A stretch of 21,399 nt of DNA from a virus, in the IMG/VR virus record IMGVR_UViG_3300043775_004952, positions 1 to 21,399 of that record; one strand, written 5' to 3'. Under the pieces are notes generated by a model. The model searched no databases. It was not told where the DNA came from and saw nothing but the letters and a program-made list of their open reading frames with translations. Shown here one piece after another: positions 1,154-19,863 of this stretch (its first letter is position 1; each line of letters opens with the position of its first letter). A program made the translations under genes and the position numbers.

Positions 1154-1365
1154 CCCTCATCTGCCAGTCTGACAACTTGAGTCCATGTCATTTTTCGTCT
1201 TTCTGTCGGACCTAACGCCGGAACGAAAGACCCTCGATTGGCATATCTCTTGACCCTCACGATGCGTGCCAATTCCAAGGCATTCGGAGCGATTCAACTT
1301 CTGTCTTTTTTCCTCTAACTCCACTTAGCCATGGACGTGAGGTGGCACTCTGGCAGATATTAACC
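1154..1365. promoter_or_regulatory. Intergenic region between divergent genes
   Basis: About 210 bp separate the leftward 74-residue gene from the rightward amidoligase gene, so promoters for both should lie here. I see no convincing -35/-10 pair. A GTCGGAC heptamer at 1205-1211 matches half of the palindromic operator found at 11110 and 11197, but a single half-site can occur by chance. Function is inferred from gene orientation only. Confidence 0.35.
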
Positions 1366-2172
1366 ATGACAACGCCAACCATGTCCCGCCGCTTCGGAGT
1401 TGAGATTGAATTCCTCTCCACCATCACACGAGAACAGGCCGTGATGAGTCTGAGAGCCGCAGGCATCCGGGTTGAATCTTCCTACTACACCCACGACACC
1501 ACTCCCTATTGGAAGATCGTCGTGGATGGCTCCTGCGGTTATGAACTGGTCAGCCCGGTTCTCGAAGGCGAGGCCGGACTTGAGGAAGTTAGAATCGCCG
1601 CCGCCGCACTGGAAGCCGCCGGAGCCACGGTGGACAAGCGGTGCGGACTCCACGTCCACTACGATGCCAGCACGATGAACCTTCGTTCCGTCAAGAACCT
1701 CCTCAAGATCTGGACCAAGTTCGAGGACGTGCTCGATACGTTTCAACCGCAGTCACGCCGGGGCAATGCCAACAGCCTGCTGGCTTCCAATCTCTCAGCA
1801 TCCTTCCATGACGCTGAAAACCACCACGAGGCCTGCCGATCCATCTTCCAGAAAATCGACGACTGCCGGACGATGGAGCAAATCAAGGACCTCTACATTT
1901 CCCGCTACCGCAAGCTCAACGTCCATTCCTACTTCCGCCATCAAACGCTCGAAGTCCGCCACCACTCCGGAACCACCGATCCAGAGAAAATCACCAACTG
2001 GGTCCGACTGATGGCCCGCATGTTCGACGCCGCCGAAGCTGCCACCACCGTCCGCAACCGGCCAGTGGATACCGGCCTCGGAATGAGCCGCACGAAGTGG
2101 TTCTTCCAAACCATCGAGGCCAAGGGACTGACCAAATTCTATACCGCCCGCGCCAAAAAACTGGCCGCCTGA
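1366..2172 (+). CDS. Predicted amidoligase (Amidoligase_2-like)
   Basis: A protein of 268 residues from the ATG at 1366; a GTG at 1342 and an ATG at 1381 are alternatives. Hallmarks of the glutamine-synthetase-fold amidoligases are in order: FGVEIEF at residues 10-16 (metal-binding acidic motif), GYELVSPVLEG at about 58-68, CGLHVHYD at 93-100, and RHQTLEVRHHSGT at 191-203. The family is predicted, largely from comparative genomics, to form amide or isopeptide-type bonds using ATP, on peptides, proteins or cell-wall precursors. Length and motif spacing are normal and no key residue appears lost. It heads a rightward three-gene run with two small proteins, either of which could be substrate or partner. 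The gamma-glutamyl cyclotransferase gene often found beside such ligases is absent. Family is confident; substrate is unknown. Confidence 0.85.
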   Translation: MTTPTMSRRFGVEIEFLSTITREQAVMSLRAAGIRVESSYYTHDTTPYWKIVVDGSCGYELVSPVLEGEAGLEEVRIAAAALEAAGATVDKRCGLHVHYDASTMNLRSVKNLLKIWTKFEDVLDTFQPQSRRGNANSLLASNLSASFHDAENHHEACRSIFQKIDDCRTMEQIKDLYISRYRKLNVHSYFRHQTLEVRHHSGTTDPEKITNWVRLMARMFDAAEAATTVRNRPVDTGLGMSRTKWFFQTIEAKGLTKFYTARAKKLAA

Positions 2173-3155: not shown

Positions 3156-3335
3156 TTAGTCATTGGCTTTCAATAGATTCCTTGCTTCCTCGGGGGTGTT
3201 TGAACCCATTTGAACCTCCGCCAGCGCAGTGGCAACGTCCGGTGTGACGTCGATAACGATGTTTCCTGGCAGATAGGCGACGAAGCGTGCTTCTTCATCG
3301 AGGAGGCGCGTGATTCGTTGGACTGGAGTGGTCAT
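3156..3335 (-). CDS. Small hypothetical protein (59 aa)
   Basis: From the ATG at 3333-3335 this encodes MTTPVQRITRLLDEEARF... ending EEARNLLKAND. It is acidic and helical-looking, without a recognised domain. A longer in-frame start at 3383 is rejected because it would translate through the tRNA-like element at 3347-3419. The coding sequence contains an exact 19-bp copy (3198-3216) of part of the repeat cluster at 5030-5097, read in the same frame (VQMGSN). There is no evident Shine-Dalgarno. It lies between the tRNA-like element and the endonuclease gene, same strand. Moderately likely to be real. Confidence 0.55.
   Translation of the reverse strand: MTTPVQRITRLLDEEARFVAYLPGNIVIDVTPDVATALAEVQMGSNTPEEARNLLKAND
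3198..3216. repeat. 19-bp exact repeat GTTTGAACCCATTTGAACC (copy 1)
   Basis: GTTTGAACCCATTTGAACC here is identical to 5042-5060. It holds two TTTGAACC half-sites in direct orientation, 10 bp apart. This copy lies inside the 59-residue gene, while the other belongs to a cluster of such half-sites in a non-coding region. A binding site for an element-encoded regulator or initiator is a reasonable inference. Confidence 0.6.
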
Positions 3336-3425: not shown

Positions 3426-4034
3426 TTAGAGCGCCTCGTAGATGTCGAGGATCAGCTTGAAGTCCTTCTTCACTGAATCACGGAACGCAGGTTCCCATTC
3501 ATCAACGGGCAGCTTCTCTGTCTGGTGCATCCACCACCGGCGAAGTTCATTGAGAATCGACAGGTGGGTTGGAAGGCCGCGCTCGACTGGGTTCGGACGA
3601 GCTTCTTCGGGTGTGAGAGGGCGGCCGGCATTGATGGATTTACGCAGGCGCGTGACGCTCATCCTTTCTCGCTCGGCGATGTCGAGCCAGCGTCTTTTCT
3701 CATCGGTATCCTTGATCTTCGCGACGACCTTGTGATGGTGAAAATCCAGAAAGTTGTTACGTAACAACTTTTCGACGTTCCTGGCGACGTGAGAATACAC
3801 CTTGAGTGTTTCGATGGCCAAGCCGGTGAGTCGAATCGCTTCGACATATTTTTCGCCATAGCGTTTCTCGCCATAGTTCAGCCAGTCGCCGACCACAAAC
3901 CCGATGGCCTTCGCCATGGGCACAAGCTCGATACCGATGCCGTTCCATTCGGCGAACGTCAGCTCGTCGTGGAATTCAATTCCGGTTCGACTTACGGTGA
4001 ATTTCGTGCTCTCAATGGTAGCCAGTGATGTCAT
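3426..4034 (-). CDS. Putative DNA-binding protein, LmbU/ParB-like
   Basis: A 202-residue soluble protein. The central segment reads GDWLNYGEKRYGEKYVEAIRLTG, then TLKVYSHVARNVE, FLDFHHHKVVAKI and RWLDIAERERMSVTRLRKSI. This order matches a helical region seen in LmbU-type regulators and ParB-related DNA-binding proteins of actinobacteria and mobile elements. By similarity it should bind DNA as a regulator or partition-type factor. There is no ParB nuclease motif or ATPase. The gene overlaps the upstream 188-residue gene by 23 bp, which suggests translational coupling, and it ends just before the tRNA-like element. It is one candidate protein for the operator sites in this window. Family-level similarity is from memory, so confidence in function is moderate. 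Confidence 0.6.
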   Translation of the reverse strand: MTSLATIESTKFTVSRTGIEFHDELTFAEWNGIGIELVPMAKAIGFVVGDWLNYGEKRYGEKYVEAIRLTGLAIETLKVYSHVARNVEKLLRNNFLDFHHHKVVAKIKDTDEKRRWLDIAERERMSVTRLRKSINAGRPLTPEEARPNPVERGLPTHLSILNELRRWWMHQTEKLPVDEWEPAFRDSVKKDFKLILDIYEAL

Positions 4035-4578
4035 GTTGGGTGGTCTTGCTTTGGATTTGTGATTGTTGATAGGTCTTGCGAGCTTTCAGGCTCCGCATGG
4101 CTCGGGATGGCAGCAGTCTCAGCTTTCGGGTGATGTCAACGCAGCGCTTCGAGACCGCGGCTCGGGTAACACCGTGACGCCGGGCGATGTCGCTCATGCT
4201 ATCGCCGTTGTAGATGTTCAGCCCGATAGCGACCGCCAGGCACTCCAGCGTGAGGCGTGCATTTCCCTGGGCTAGAAGGTCGGCCACCAATGAACGAAGC
4301 ATGGTGGTGGCTGCGTCCATCACCACATTCTCGTCCTCTTGGTCTTGCGCAGGATCGACTAGAGCCGCGATGTCCGGCGTGTGACTGGCTCGCGATGATT
4401 CGGCCATGTCGTGATCCGCAGCACCATTGCCGTGGCGTTGGATGCATGGTTTGAGCAGTCCAAGCTTTTCCGCTTCCCGTCGTTCTTCGAGGGTCATGGA
4501 CTTCACCCAAGCCTCGTAGTCGCGTTCGTACTGAGCATCCCGTTTTGTCTGCTTTTTGGTGTAGTCGTCGGAGTTCAT
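4012..4578 (-). CDS. Helix-turn-helix protein, sigma-70 region 4-like
   Basis: A 188-residue protein starting at the ATG at 4576-4578. A strong Shine-Dalgarno (AGGAGG at 4590-4585 on the minus strand) sits 6 nt upstream. Residues about 105-155 contain a likely helix-turn-helix: NGDSMSDIARRHGVTRAAVS followed by KRCVDITRKLRLLPSRAMRS, resembling sigma-70 region 4 or phage-type transcription regulators. The first 90 residues are polar, charged and probably flexible. Its start overlaps the stop of the upstream 94-residue gene as ATGA (4575-4578), the usual sign of coupled translation, and its own end overlaps the next gene by 23 bp. A role in regulating this cluster is inferred from the HTH and its position among small regulators. 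Confidence 0.65.
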   Translation of the reverse strand: MNSDDYTKKQTKRDAQYERDYEAWVKSMTLEERREAEKLGLLKPCIQRHGNGAADHDMAESSRASHTPDIAALVDPAQDQEDENVVMDAATTMLRSLVADLLAQGNARLTLECLAVAIGLNIYNGDSMSDIARRHGVTRAAVSKRCVDITRKLRLLPSRAMRSLKARKTYQQSQIQSKTTQHDITGYH

Positions 4579-4859
4579 GGCTGACCTCCTTTGCGTCCCT
4601 GCCAGAGCCGGGTGGCCGGGTTGAACTTGATCACGCCCTTGGCTGAAGCTGCGTGGAAAATCCTGTCAGCCTCCTCCAGGGTTGCCCCAAAGCTCTCAAT
4701 CAGGAATCGAAGGACCTGGCTGCATTTCTTCTGATAGATGTCGGGACGATTCGGCCAGTGGTCGAGGTCGGGCATGAATTCCAACTCGGGCCAAAGGTGG
4801 ATATATTTTGAAACCCTTGGCTTTTGAATTTTTTTCAGAGGTCTTTTCCTGAGGTTCAT
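4575..4859 (-). CDS. Standalone paralog of the primase C-terminal domain (94 aa)
   Basis: This basic protein of 94 residues starts at 4857-4859 behind a near-perfect Shine-Dalgarno (AGGAGG, 4871-4866 minus strand, 6 nt spacing). Residues 47-92 (SQVLRFLIESFG... TLEEADRIFHAAS... FNPATRLWQGRKGG) align with residues 621-674 of the primase-helicase encoded just upstream (SGVLAYISDRIA... TLKEAQRVFYCLA... FDKATRLWRGRRHG). Shared positions include S-VL, TL-EA-R-F and ATRLW-GR--G. The pattern fits a small winged-helix-type nucleic-acid binding domain. The two genes flank the palindrome-rich region 4917-5097. I infer that both may bind the same DNA or partner, the small one as regulator or competitor. 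No function is established. Confidence 0.65.
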   Translation of the reverse strand: MNLRKRPLKKIQKPRVSKYIHLWPELEFMPDLDHWPNRPDIYQKKCSQVLRFLIESFGATLEEADRIFHAASAKGVIKFNPATRLWQGRKGGQP

Positions 4860-4916
4860 TTGTCACCTCCTCTCGGCGTCAACGGAAGGCAAATGACTGC
4901 TGTCGCTTTCCTAAGC

Positions 4917-5000
4917 GTAACAGCGCACGCGAATCCTGGTTCACCAGTTCGCGCTGTTATACTACGTATAACTGTCAGATCGCCAGTAAGGTGCCTTACT
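4917..5000. promoter_or_regulatory. Dense palindromes: candidate origin or control site
   Basis: Consecutive inverted repeats are visible. TAACAG (4918-4923) pairs with CTGTTA (4954-4959). Inside it CGCGAA (4928-4933) pairs with TTCGCG (4948-4953), and inside that CTGG (4936-4939) pairs with CCAG (4944-4947). GTTATAC-TAC-GTATAAC (4956-4972) is a perfect 7/3/7 repeat. AGTAAGG-TG-CCTTACT (4985-5000) is a perfect 7/2/7 repeat. All lie in the 231-bp gap between the primase-helicase gene and the 94-residue gene. Such density suggests protein binding or extruded hairpins at an origin, operator or terminator; which one is inference. Confidence 0.6.
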
Positions 5001-5029
5001 ATACAGCGCAGCGGACCGTTAGAAAACGC

Positions 5030-5097
5030 GGGTTCAAACCAGTTTGAACCCATTTGAACCCGAGGTTCAAACCCACCTGAAATGACGGGTTCAAACT
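5030..5097. repeat. Cluster of GTTCAAAC/GTTTGAAC half-sites
   Basis: Five half-sites occur in 68 bp: GGGTTCAAAC (5030-5039), GTTTGAACCC (5042-5051), ATTTGAACCC (5052-5061), GGTTCAAACC (5065-5074) and GGGTTCAAAC (5088-5097). The first two form a perfect 10/2/10 inverted repeat. The stretch 5042-5060 recurs exactly at 3198-3216. The last site overlaps the 3' end of the primase-helicase gene. The array resembles iterons or a multi-site operator, and its position directly after the palindromes at 4917-5000 supports a replication or regulatory role. Confidence 0.65.
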
Positions 5098-11109: not shown

Positions 11110-11125
11110 GTCGGACATGTCCGAC
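11110..11125. promoter_or_regulatory. Palindromic operator, copy 1
   Basis: GTCGGACATGTCCGAC is a perfect 16-bp palindrome. With the following TTT it is 19 bp identical to copy 2. It lies 47 bp upstream of the ATPase start codon, a good place for a dimeric repressor. The binding protein is unknown. Confidence 0.75.
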
Positions 11126-11147
11126 TTTGGGTCGCTGCATCGCTGAA

Positions 11148-11167
11148 TTCCCCGTAACTACGGGGAA
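11148..11167. promoter_or_regulatory. Hairpin between the two operators
   Basis: TTCCCCGTA (11148-11156), AC, TACGGGGAA (11159-11167) is a perfect 9/2/9 inverted repeat. A-rich then T-rich runs follow on the plus strand. It could be a further binding site or, read rightward, a terminator-like hairpin. Function is not determined. Confidence 0.5.
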
Positions 11168-11196
11168 AAATTTTCGTAGATTTTTTTCAAACCGGA

Positions 11197-11212
11197 GTCG
11201 GACATGTCCGAC
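11197..11212. promoter_or_regulatory. Palindromic operator, copy 2
   Basis: A second perfect GTCGGACATGTCCGAC, again followed by TTT. Here the palindrome extends one base on each side (A...T). It starts 87 bp from copy 1, about eight helical turns, which would suit a looped or cooperative repressor complex. Confidence 0.75.
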
Positions 11213-11478
11213 TTTCAGCCAAAATGGGACCACTGAGGGGCAGCCCTGTGGCAAAGAGTTTCAGCTTTCCGAACTATCCGAGTGCTCGTGAACAGAGGAT
11301 TTGACCGGGGTTTTACTTTTTTATTTTCCAAATAGTCAAAAGGTGTTCAAAAGAACTGCCCTAACCCAATTTGCATGCCAGCGATTCGCTCTACCCGTCT
11401 TGTCCGTCCCGGTGTTCTTTCAAACCTCAAGCCCTCCAGCATCCACTGTCTTCTATCTCCATTCTCAGCTTATTTTGC

Positions 11479-18102: not shown

Positions 18103-19863
18103 ATGGCTGAAGTATCCATGGCAGTAATACCAAAGATAGACCTCAACAAATCGCGAAGAATTGAGTGGGATCGAATTTGCGATGAACTCGATGTTGACGA
18201 TAACCCGAATTTGGAGATCCAAGAGGTCAAAGACCTTAAAGAATGGTACGTCAACCCGCGGGGTGAGCAGACCTGGAGTGTATGCGTCGCCGGTATAAAC
18301 CTCATCATAGTCTGTCTTGCCGAACACTGTGAATCCGAGGATTACAGTAAAATCTGCAAGATCGCCTATTTCCAACAACTCAACGATTGGTTGGAGCAGG
18401 AGGCAAAAGAGGATGCAAGAATGGCTACCATCTTGGATCGGATCAAAGCAGAGCGATTTCTTGAGGACGAAGGTAGCGTGAATCTGTCCGAGATGACATC
18501 GATCACTGAAGAGGCCGCGGAAATACTCTCCACTTATGGGGGCGAAATTGACCTCTCTGGTCTGACCGATTTGTCTGAGAAGGCTGCAGAGGCACTCTCC
18601 AAATATAAGGGGGAATATGAGGGGGAGTGGATTCCACTTGACGGACTAACAGAGCTTTCGCCCCCAACTGCAAAGGCGCTTTCCAAATATCAGGGCACTC
18701 TTTCTCTCGACGGCCTGACCGTGCTATCGGACGCCGCCGCCGAAGCTCTTTCCAAGCATCAAGGAGATTTTATTAGCCTTGGGGGCCTGACCGAACTGTC
18801 GGAGGCTAACGCGGAGGCTCTTTCCAAGCATCAGGGGGTGCTTTTCTTAAACGGTATGACCTTACTTTCGGCCGTCACTGCAGAGGCTCTTTCCAAGCAC
18901 CAGGGGAAACTTTATCTCTACGGCCTGACCGAACTCTCGGACGCTGCTGCGGAGGCTCTTGCCAAGCATCAGGGGGAGCTTTATCTCAATGGCCTGACCG
19001 TGCTCTCGGACGCCGCTGCAGTGGCTTTTTCCAATCATCGGATGCTTTGGCTCGGCGGCCTGACCGAACTCTCTGAGGCCGTTGCTAAAGTTCTCTGCAA
19101 TAGAAACGGAGAGCTTTATCTCAATGGCCTGACCGAGATCTCGGACGCAGCTGCGGAGGCCCTTTCCAAACATCAGGGAAATCTTTATCTCCGCGGCCTG
19201 ACCGGACTCTCAGACGCTGCGGCAAAAGCTCTTGCCAATCATTTGGGTAATCTCGACCTATCCGGCCTGACCGAACTCTCAGACGTAGCCGCAAAGGCTC
19301 TTTCCAAGCACCAGGGGAATCTGTCTCTCGGTGGTCTGACCGAGCTCTCGGACGCTTCGGCAAAGGCTCTTGCCAAGCATCAGGGAAGGCTTGAGATCTG
19401 GGGCCTAACCGAACTTTCAGCAACTGCGGCAAAGGCTCTTACCAACTATAAGGGATATCTTGACTTCCCTTGCCTGACCAAACTCTCGGACGCTGCGGCT
19501 AAAGCTCTTGCCAAGCATCAGGGGGAGCTTTATCTCAATGGCCTGACCGAACTCTCGGACGCCGCTGCAGAGGCTCTTTCCAAGAATCAAGATTGGCTTA
19601 GACTCTGCGGCCTGACCGAACTCTCGGACGCCGCGCTTAATGCTCTCTCCAAGCATCAGGGATCTCTTTCCCTTGACGGCCTGACCGAACTCTCGGACGC
19701 CGCAGCGGAGGCTCTTGCCAAGCATCAGGGAAGGCTTGAGATCTGGGGCCTGACCGTGCTCTCGGACGCCGCTGCGGCAGCTCTTTCCAAGCATCAGGGG
19801 CAGATTAATTGGAAGGAACCCGCCGAATGGGTGGCCTCGCTCGAAAACAAGAACAAGAATTGA
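18103..19863 (+). CDS. Leucine-rich-repeat-type protein (586 aa, about 19 repeats)
   Basis: The first 125 residues are a non-repetitive soluble domain, and no signal peptide is seen, so the protein is probably cytoplasmic. Residues about 126-567 are about nineteen tandem units, mostly of 23 residues, with consensus GLTELSDAAAEALSKHQG plus a short strand such as LYLN. Each unit fits a strand-turn-helix solenoid of leucine-rich-repeat type. Such arrays are common in Verrucomicrobiota and Planctomycetota and usually bind other proteins. A short tail (INWKEPAEW...) closes the protein. The gene follows the nuclease-helicase on the same strand after 165 bp containing a hairpin, so it may be separately expressed. 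A sensor or adaptor role is a guess; no enzymatic motif is seen. Confidence 0.85.
   Translation: MAEVSMAVIPKIDLNKSRRIEWDRICDELDVDDNPNLEIQEVKDLKEWYVNPRGEQTWSVCVAGINLIIVCLAEHCESEDYSKICKIAYFQQLNDWLEQEAKEDARMATILDRIKAERFLEDEGSVNLSEMTSITEEAAEILSTYGGEIDLSGLTDLSEKAAEALSKYKGEYEGEWIPLDGLTELSPPTAKALSKYQGTLSLDGLTVLSDAAAEALSKHQGDFISLGGLTELSEANAEALSKHQGVLFLNGMTLLSAVTAEALSKHQGKLYLYGLTELSDAAAEALAKHQGELYLNGLTVLSDAAAVAFSNHRMLWLGGLTELSEAVAKVLCNRNGELYLNGLTEISDAAAEALSKHQGNLYLRGLTGLSDAAAKALANHLGNLDLSGLTELSDVAAKALSKHQGNLSLGGLTELSDASAKALAKHQGRLEIWGLTELSATAAKALTNYKGYLDFPCLTKLSDAAAKALAKHQGELYLNGLTELSDAAAEALSKNQDWLRLCGLTELSDAALNALSKHQGSLSLDGLTELSDAAAEALAKHQGRLEIWGLTVLSDAAAAALSKHQGQINWKEPAEWVASLENKNKN
18481..19803 (+). 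repeat. 69-bp tandem repeat array within the LRR-type gene
   Basis: The coding repeats are also visible in DNA as about nineteen 69-bp units. Some distant units are nearly identical: 18955-19020 and 19504-19569 differ at two of 66 bases, eight units apart. Positions 19366-19406 and 19711-19751 are identical over 41 bases, exactly five units (345 bp) apart. This points to block duplication or gene conversion within the array. Unit length varies slightly: one has 22 residues and the second has 28. Confidence 0.85.

Follow-up and report, generated by a model that had tools for sequence, protein, structure and literature searches.

PICI origins lie immediately 3′ of rep, and rep-ori segments of Gram-negative PICIs replicate a plasmid (PMC6092414). 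In SaPI Rep and SCCmec Cch2, the C-terminal domain reads iterons situated downstream of the proteins’ own genes (PMC7581432). The ssi element recognised by RSF1010 RepB′ is 40 nt long and includes a hairpin (PMC4434180), and the stem-loop 3′ of the pRN1 prim-pol gene is essential for replication, even if binding of the pRN1 protein to this stem-loop could not be detected (PMC4234260). The alpha protein of phage P4—one primase-helicase—binds origin repeats through its C-terminal winged helix (PMC4234260). The marks of the InversePrim family, which was described from prophages, are a His in motif II, a RepA-type helicase and a PriCT domain that precedes the primase (PMC5862659). A search of the freely accessible literature returned no earlier description of an origin for InversePrim phages.

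Here, we analysed a 21,399-nucleotide stretch of viral DNA (‘the window’) and interpret its positions 4899–5097 as a probable cis-acting origin from which a Verrucomicrobia (pro)phage with an InversePrim-family primase-helicase replicates. The basis for this interpretation is formed by repeats, their place and density, their co-change with part of the neighbouring protein, compensatory changes in the hairpins and the domain architecture. What is likely to be new is an origin directly 3′ of the initiator-helicase gene for the InversePrim family, one that combines lineage-specific iterons with a three-hairpin element.

The locus resembles PICI/SaPI and SCCmec (Cch2) elements in that iterons lie immediately 3′ of the initiator-helicase gene and are specific to each element (PMC6092414, PMC7581432). 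However, PICIs and SaPIs use a different helicase family, whereas in the present locus a single protein comprises primase and helicase, and the iterons are followed by three conserved hairpins. Moreover, two iteron sets flank an AT-rich stretch in PICI origins, whereas we found no clear AT-rich melting segment between the two site types of the window. With RSF1010 oriV, the locus shares a RepA-type helicase (the closest solved fold), an AEP primase, and iterons together with hairpins (ssiA/ssiB, PMC4434180); a helicase half that is RSF1010 RepA-like thus fits an origin with iterons and hairpins. RSF1010 differs in having three separate proteins (RepA, RepB′ and RepC) and one ssi per strand in place of one fused protein and three tandem hairpins, and no RepC homologue was identified here. 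RSF1010-type oriV also includes an AT-rich region; iterons and hairpins are what is present in the window. pRN1/BPP-1-type elements likewise have a stem-loop right behind an AEP primase-helicase gene whose product carries a C-terminal winged helix (PMC4234260), and in the locus, too, the structure 3′ of the replication gene is kept while its sequence diverges. In contrast to the RepA/RecA-type helicase found here, pRN1 has an SF3 helicase, and its single 100-nt stem-loop comes without iterons. Phage P4 possesses a two-site arrangement, ori and crr, which the two repeat clusters of the window resemble, and it likewise relies on one primase-helicase. Its alpha protein, however, combines a Toprim primase with another helicase family, and the second cluster here is partly conserved and falls within coding sequence.

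Architecture of the gap 3′ of the primase-helicase gene

The gap at 4860–5090 is flanked by two co-directional genes, one of which encodes the primase-helicase (Table 1). The N-terminus of this protein is all-helical in a structure model, and its residues 21–81 match PriCT_1 below threshold (E 0.0043; 17.1 bits vs a cut-off of 21.1); PriCT_2 is clear in Bacillota relatives (residues 7–81). The AEP primase domain contains EFD and SGNKSLH motifs and an invariant motif II His. The helicase half adopts a RecA fold (AAA_25, E 1.5e-23), with RSF1010 RepA as its top match both by profile and by fold, and the small C-terminal domain (helix-helix-strand-strand) is winged-helix-like. The protein hence displays the InversePrim (PrimPol-PV1) marks: PriCT ahead of the primase—though sub-threshold in the window—a C-terminal helicase of the RepA family, and the motif II His. 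Its relatives reside in viral records and cultured phages, in line with the prophage association of the family. The initial annotation had assigned a common DNA-binding-like domain to the two genes bordering the gap, and comparison of the 94-aa protein with the primase C-terminal domain bore this out (E = 7e-4). The 202-aa protein of the window shows weak ParB-HTH similarity, below the cut-off.

Table 1 Repeats, hairpins and genes at and around the candidate origin.
Feature	Position	Strand	Remarks
TTTGAACC site 1	5088–5095	−	includes primase stop codon TGA; kept in all same-type loci
TTTGAACC site 2	5064–5071	−	24 bp from site 1
TTTGAACC site 3	5053–5060	+	inverse orientation
TTTGAACC site 4	5043–5050	+	right arm of 10/2/10 inverted repeat
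TTTGAACC site 5	5031–5038	−	left arm of 10/2/10 inverted repeat
Second site type	4972–5000	−	AGTAAGGCACCTTACT inverted repeat and CTGACAG; ~12-bp period; abuts P1
Hairpin P1	4956–4972	.	7-bp perfect palindrome, 3-nt loop
Hairpin P2	4927–4954	.	7 bp + 2-nt bulge + 4 bp + 4-nt loop
Hairpin P3	4899–4924	.	5 bp + 2-nt bulge + 5 bp + 4-nt loop
Second TTTGAACC pair	3199–3216	+	inversely oriented; 1.9 kb from array; 3′ end of small ORF
Primase-helicase, 675 aa	5091–7118	−	PriCT-like, AEP primase, RepA-type helicase, C-terminal domain
94-aa gene	4575–4859	−	has primase C-terminal domain; optional (about half of array-bearing loci lack it)
188-aa gene	4012–4578	−	HTH, sigma-region-4-like; kept where iteron changes

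Read in gene direction, an array of TTTGAACC copies (5097–5031) is followed by CTTACTG-like sites (5000–4972) and by three consecutive hairpins, P1, P2 and P3. Since site 1 takes in the primase stop codon, the array starts within the last codons of that gene. Two perfect inverted repeats that had been noted earlier, GTTATAC-TAC-GTATAAC (4956–4972; 7/3/7) and AGTAAGG-TG-CCTTACT (4985–5000; 7/2/7), are both present, as are the perfect 10/2/10 inverted repeat GGGTTCAAAC-CA-GTTTGAACCC at 5030–5051 and the three additional half-sites, which correspond to TTTGAACC sites 1–3. A nested stem proposed at 4918–4959 does have matching arms (TAACAGCGC/GCGCTGTTA at 4918–4926/4951–4959), but it constitutes an alternative pairing in competition with hairpin P3. 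The latter had not featured in the initial annotation, and with it the whole unit spans ~4899–5097.

This arrangement exceeds the chance level. TTTGAACC occurs eight times in the window vs 0.71 times expected, a count that 0/100 shuffles reached, and five exact copies fall inside 65 bp; no 8-mer was found five times per 70 bp in any of 100 shuffles, the shuffle maximum being three. The 200-bp bin at 4901 holds 17 of the 79 short inverted repeats of the window, compared with nine in the next bin outside the region. The earlier impression that nothing else in the window is as dense thus holds for inverted repeats, but not for short direct repeats, which are denser in a coding LRR gene (at ~19.6 kb). 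In the diverged relatives L085 and L106, the iterons (CCTTAC and CCTTGC) have the same core as the second site type. TTTGAACC and CTTACTG-like sites occur together in the window’s group, and either may be the one that the primase reads. GC skew along the 21-kb linear fragment showed no extremum at 5 kb and followed gene direction; it is therefore uninformative on the origin, neither for nor against.

Folding of both strands, an analysis that had been suggested at the outset, yielded z-scores of −3.9 and −5.0 vs shuffles for positions 4890–5000 (111 nt) as ssDNA, and of −2.65 for the transcribed strand as RNA. Compensatory changes keep the hairpins across relatives. P1 exists in 12 sequence versions, with 84/84 Watson-Crick pairs and no G.U. 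Across all helices of 21 representatives, 465/472 cells are Watson-Crick—a somewhat favourable count, as helix limits were set by hand—and the non-Watson-Crick cells on the transcribed strand comprise four G.T, three other mismatches and no A.C. Pairs were counted from a hand-made table whose motif order was checked against the records; a MAFFT alignment of the hairpins lost the structure. Two of the 21 entries for P3 (L106, L087) fell outside the check pattern, and the P3 check covered the loci other than L088. That P1 is free of wobble would speak for selection acting on the DNA, and the conserved one-sided bulges of P2 (2 nt, on the 3′ side in the transcribed-strand sense) and P3 suggest a single strand folding on itself instead of a duplex palindrome bound by protein. 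ARAGORN and Rfam searches retrieved no RNA family fitting the hairpins and no Rfam match above chance.

The hairpin sequences (for instance in L002, L004 and L019) consist of a few near-invariant blocks that are exchanged whole between loci. One hairpin class, AGAGCGCG, is mostly found in loci lacking the 94-aa gene.

Repeat position and sequence among relatives

Relatives were drawn from genome and viral collections. Homologous elements lacking the array at this place would have spoken against the initial proposal; instead, 50/50 same-type loci, a count that includes the window, have a TTTGAACC array beginning at the stop codon of the primase gene. Some of these loci have just two exact TTTGAACC copies left. 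The spaced double site TTTGAACC-N6-16-TTTGAACC is confined to a single place per record in the 12 exact-match records among 26 searched, including four MAGs of millions of bases. A second TTTGAACC cluster accompanies the array, with an exact site at the matching place, 1.4–2.1 kb downstream, in 32/46 same-type loci. Verrucomicrobia relatives with the same helicase type (58–66% identity) have CCTTAC, CCTTGC, TCTCG or TTCCCT repeats at the same spot and share the hairpin layout of the window. Iteron enrichment was weak in L087 and L088, where 6–10/200 shuffles reached it, and not significant vs shuffles in L113.

The primase reading frame of L088 is scrambled at its 3′ end relative to relatives, and that of L109 has an early stop; both are probably frameshift or decayed copies.

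A blastn search of phage records with the array region produced no match, so generality was tested through the primase protein. With tblastn, relatives at 35–41% identity were recovered from Streptococcus, Faecalibacterium, Flavonifractor, Paenibacillus, Enterococcus and Bacillus phages. We took 12 cultured Bacillota phage loci, which are not independent samples because six are streptococcal. From the primase to the next convincing gene, usually one for RusA/resolvase, these loci have a stretch of 211–407 nt (12/12); small hypothetical ORFs annotated within the gaps of Castelnaud and Diane were treated as doubtful. In 11/12 cases, the 200 bp with the highest repeat density anywhere in the 5-kb locus fell within the gap immediately following the primase gene, Paenibacillus phage Diane—with its top repeat bin elsewhere—being the sole exception. 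The highest copy count was observed in the Javan535 gap (AGGGACA, 16 copies), and the Bacillota gap sequences fold into hairpins. Arrays at the same place in relatives from two bacterial phyla support the idea, put forward in the initial annotation, of a candidate origin.

A subset of loci (L048–L050 and L089–L114, except L104) have kept the AEP domain (56–84% identity), joined to a different RecA-type helicase with a C-terminal HTH. In the corresponding position, their repeats read GCTGCAA, GTGCAA, CTGACA or CTGCCA; the iteron spacing is nearly unchanged (23/24/9 vs 24/23/10), and one long hairpin is found at the array position. In these comparisons, the repeat sequence changes with the helicase/C-terminal half of the primase. 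It follows neither the primase domain nor the 94-aa or 188-aa gene and, on thinner evidence, does not seem to follow the 202-aa gene either. In the near-identical pair L111/L112, the 188-aa and 202-aa proteins are as similar as within the TTTGAACC group, yet the iterons are CTGACA, which makes these proteins unlikely readers of the array (again with thinner evidence for the 202-aa protein). The 94-residue protein, initially considered as a binder, is not needed: many array-bearing loci lack its gene. The helicase/C-terminal half of the primase would be the likelier reader. Linkage stays a caveat because array and helicase half adjoin: a single recombination block might carry the two along together even if they never interact. 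The one observation against pure linkage is the distant second TTTGAACC cluster, which lies in coding sequence and is absent from L111/L112, with their CTGACA array, a loss seen in this one near-identical pair.

A candidate origin and its alternatives

The best reading of these patterns, and the most likely one, is an initiator-specific origin. The C-terminal DNA-binding part of the primase-helicase would bind the repeats that directly follow the gene encoding it, whereupon the RepA-type hexameric helicase would assemble and open the DNA. The exposed single strand could then fold into the P1-P2-P3 hairpins, at which the attached AEP primase may lay the first primer.

The position of the array between co-directional genes and ahead of a conserved ribosome-binding region would also suit an operator or promoter, at which a regulator—the 94-aa, 188-aa or 202-aa protein, or the primase—controls downstream genes, with hairpins that are incidental or shape a leader; that the 94-aa protein has the primase C-terminal domain points the same way. 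We consider this unlikely, given that the 94-aa gene is missing from many array-bearing loci, that the 188-aa and 202-aa genes stay while the iteron changes, and that Bacillota arrays are present despite a differing next gene (RusA, hypothetical or pyrophosphohydrolase). Nor did inspection by eye reveal a promoter motif common to the hairpin classes. Alternatively, the hairpins might act in the transcript, as an attenuator, a leader or a small antisense-type RNA, with the TTTGAACC array as a separate protein site. Three hairpins whose bulges are conserved and whose stems show compensatory changes, with transcribed-strand exceptions that are G.T or other mismatches and never A.C, are consistent with such an RNA. 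The wobble-free P1, however, would be unusual for an evolving RNA helix, a terminator-like U run is lacking, and the fold is stronger as ssDNA than as RNA, rendering a structured RNA quite improbable.

The palindromic nature of the sites, along with the ParB-HTH-like 202-aa protein as a potential reader, would be compatible with a parS-like partition site or a resolution site. We deem this highly implausible: the 202-aa protein of L111/L112, with their other iterons, is about as similar as within the TTTGAACC group, the genes scanned around the array yielded no recognisable ParA or recombinase, and in both phyla the array keeps its place next to the primase gene.

An initiator-specific origin would carry the general prediction that the gap 3′ of the InversePrim gene is the origin in streptococcal, enterococcal and Bacillus phages, too, and the swaps of helicase half and iteron that have occurred naturally would offer a way to learn which domain sets origin specificity and could yield small compatible replicons for poorly tractable Verrucomicrobia. 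More tentatively, and with some doubt on our part, there may be family-wide InversePrim origin cassettes in which the helicase/C-terminal half, the iterons and a hairpin loading element form one exchangeable block, allowing origin specificity to be swapped with the primase unchanged; the bulged three-hairpin element might then represent a new priming/loading structure used by a fused AEP primase-RepA helicase. Origins of this kind could also serve as decoys against phages, a use for which there is a precedent in the Sfi21 origin element in dairy streptococci (PMC6356513).

Other features of the window

A tRNA-like sequence of 70–72 nt (3418–3347, minus strand) ends in AACCA and carries TCATA (CAU) where the anticodon loop would be; its T-arm is normal, whereas its D-arm is strongly reduced. 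It was missed by ARAGORN and had no Rfam tRNA match. It is located right after the 202-aa gene in dozens of loci, exists in 28 sequence versions and shows compensatory changes in 5/18 pairs. Separately, a likeness of TTTGAACC to the tRNA T-arm was dismissed as coincidence because diverged relatives use unrelated repeats.

Between a 75-aa ORF and a DUF559-like endonuclease gene lies a strongly conserved block, GGCAGGGATGTCC...TTTCCCACATAACGG (3155–3060, minus strand), which is AT-rich in the window and has multiplied TTCCCA repeats in some relatives (L043, L045, L025). Upstream of a Sak4-like gene, between divergent gene groups, two copies of the perfect palindrome (A)GTCGGACATGTCCGAC(T) (11110–11126 and 11196–11213) enclose a 9/2/9 inverted repeat (11148–11167); the palindromes are likely repressor operators. 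A putative amidoligase gene (1342–2172, plus strand; PF12224, E 1.9e-37) is situated in a phage-like region. The most repeat-dense coding stretch of the window is a 586-aa ORF (18103–19863, plus strand) with many leucine-rich-type repeats (LTELSDAAAEALSKHQG).
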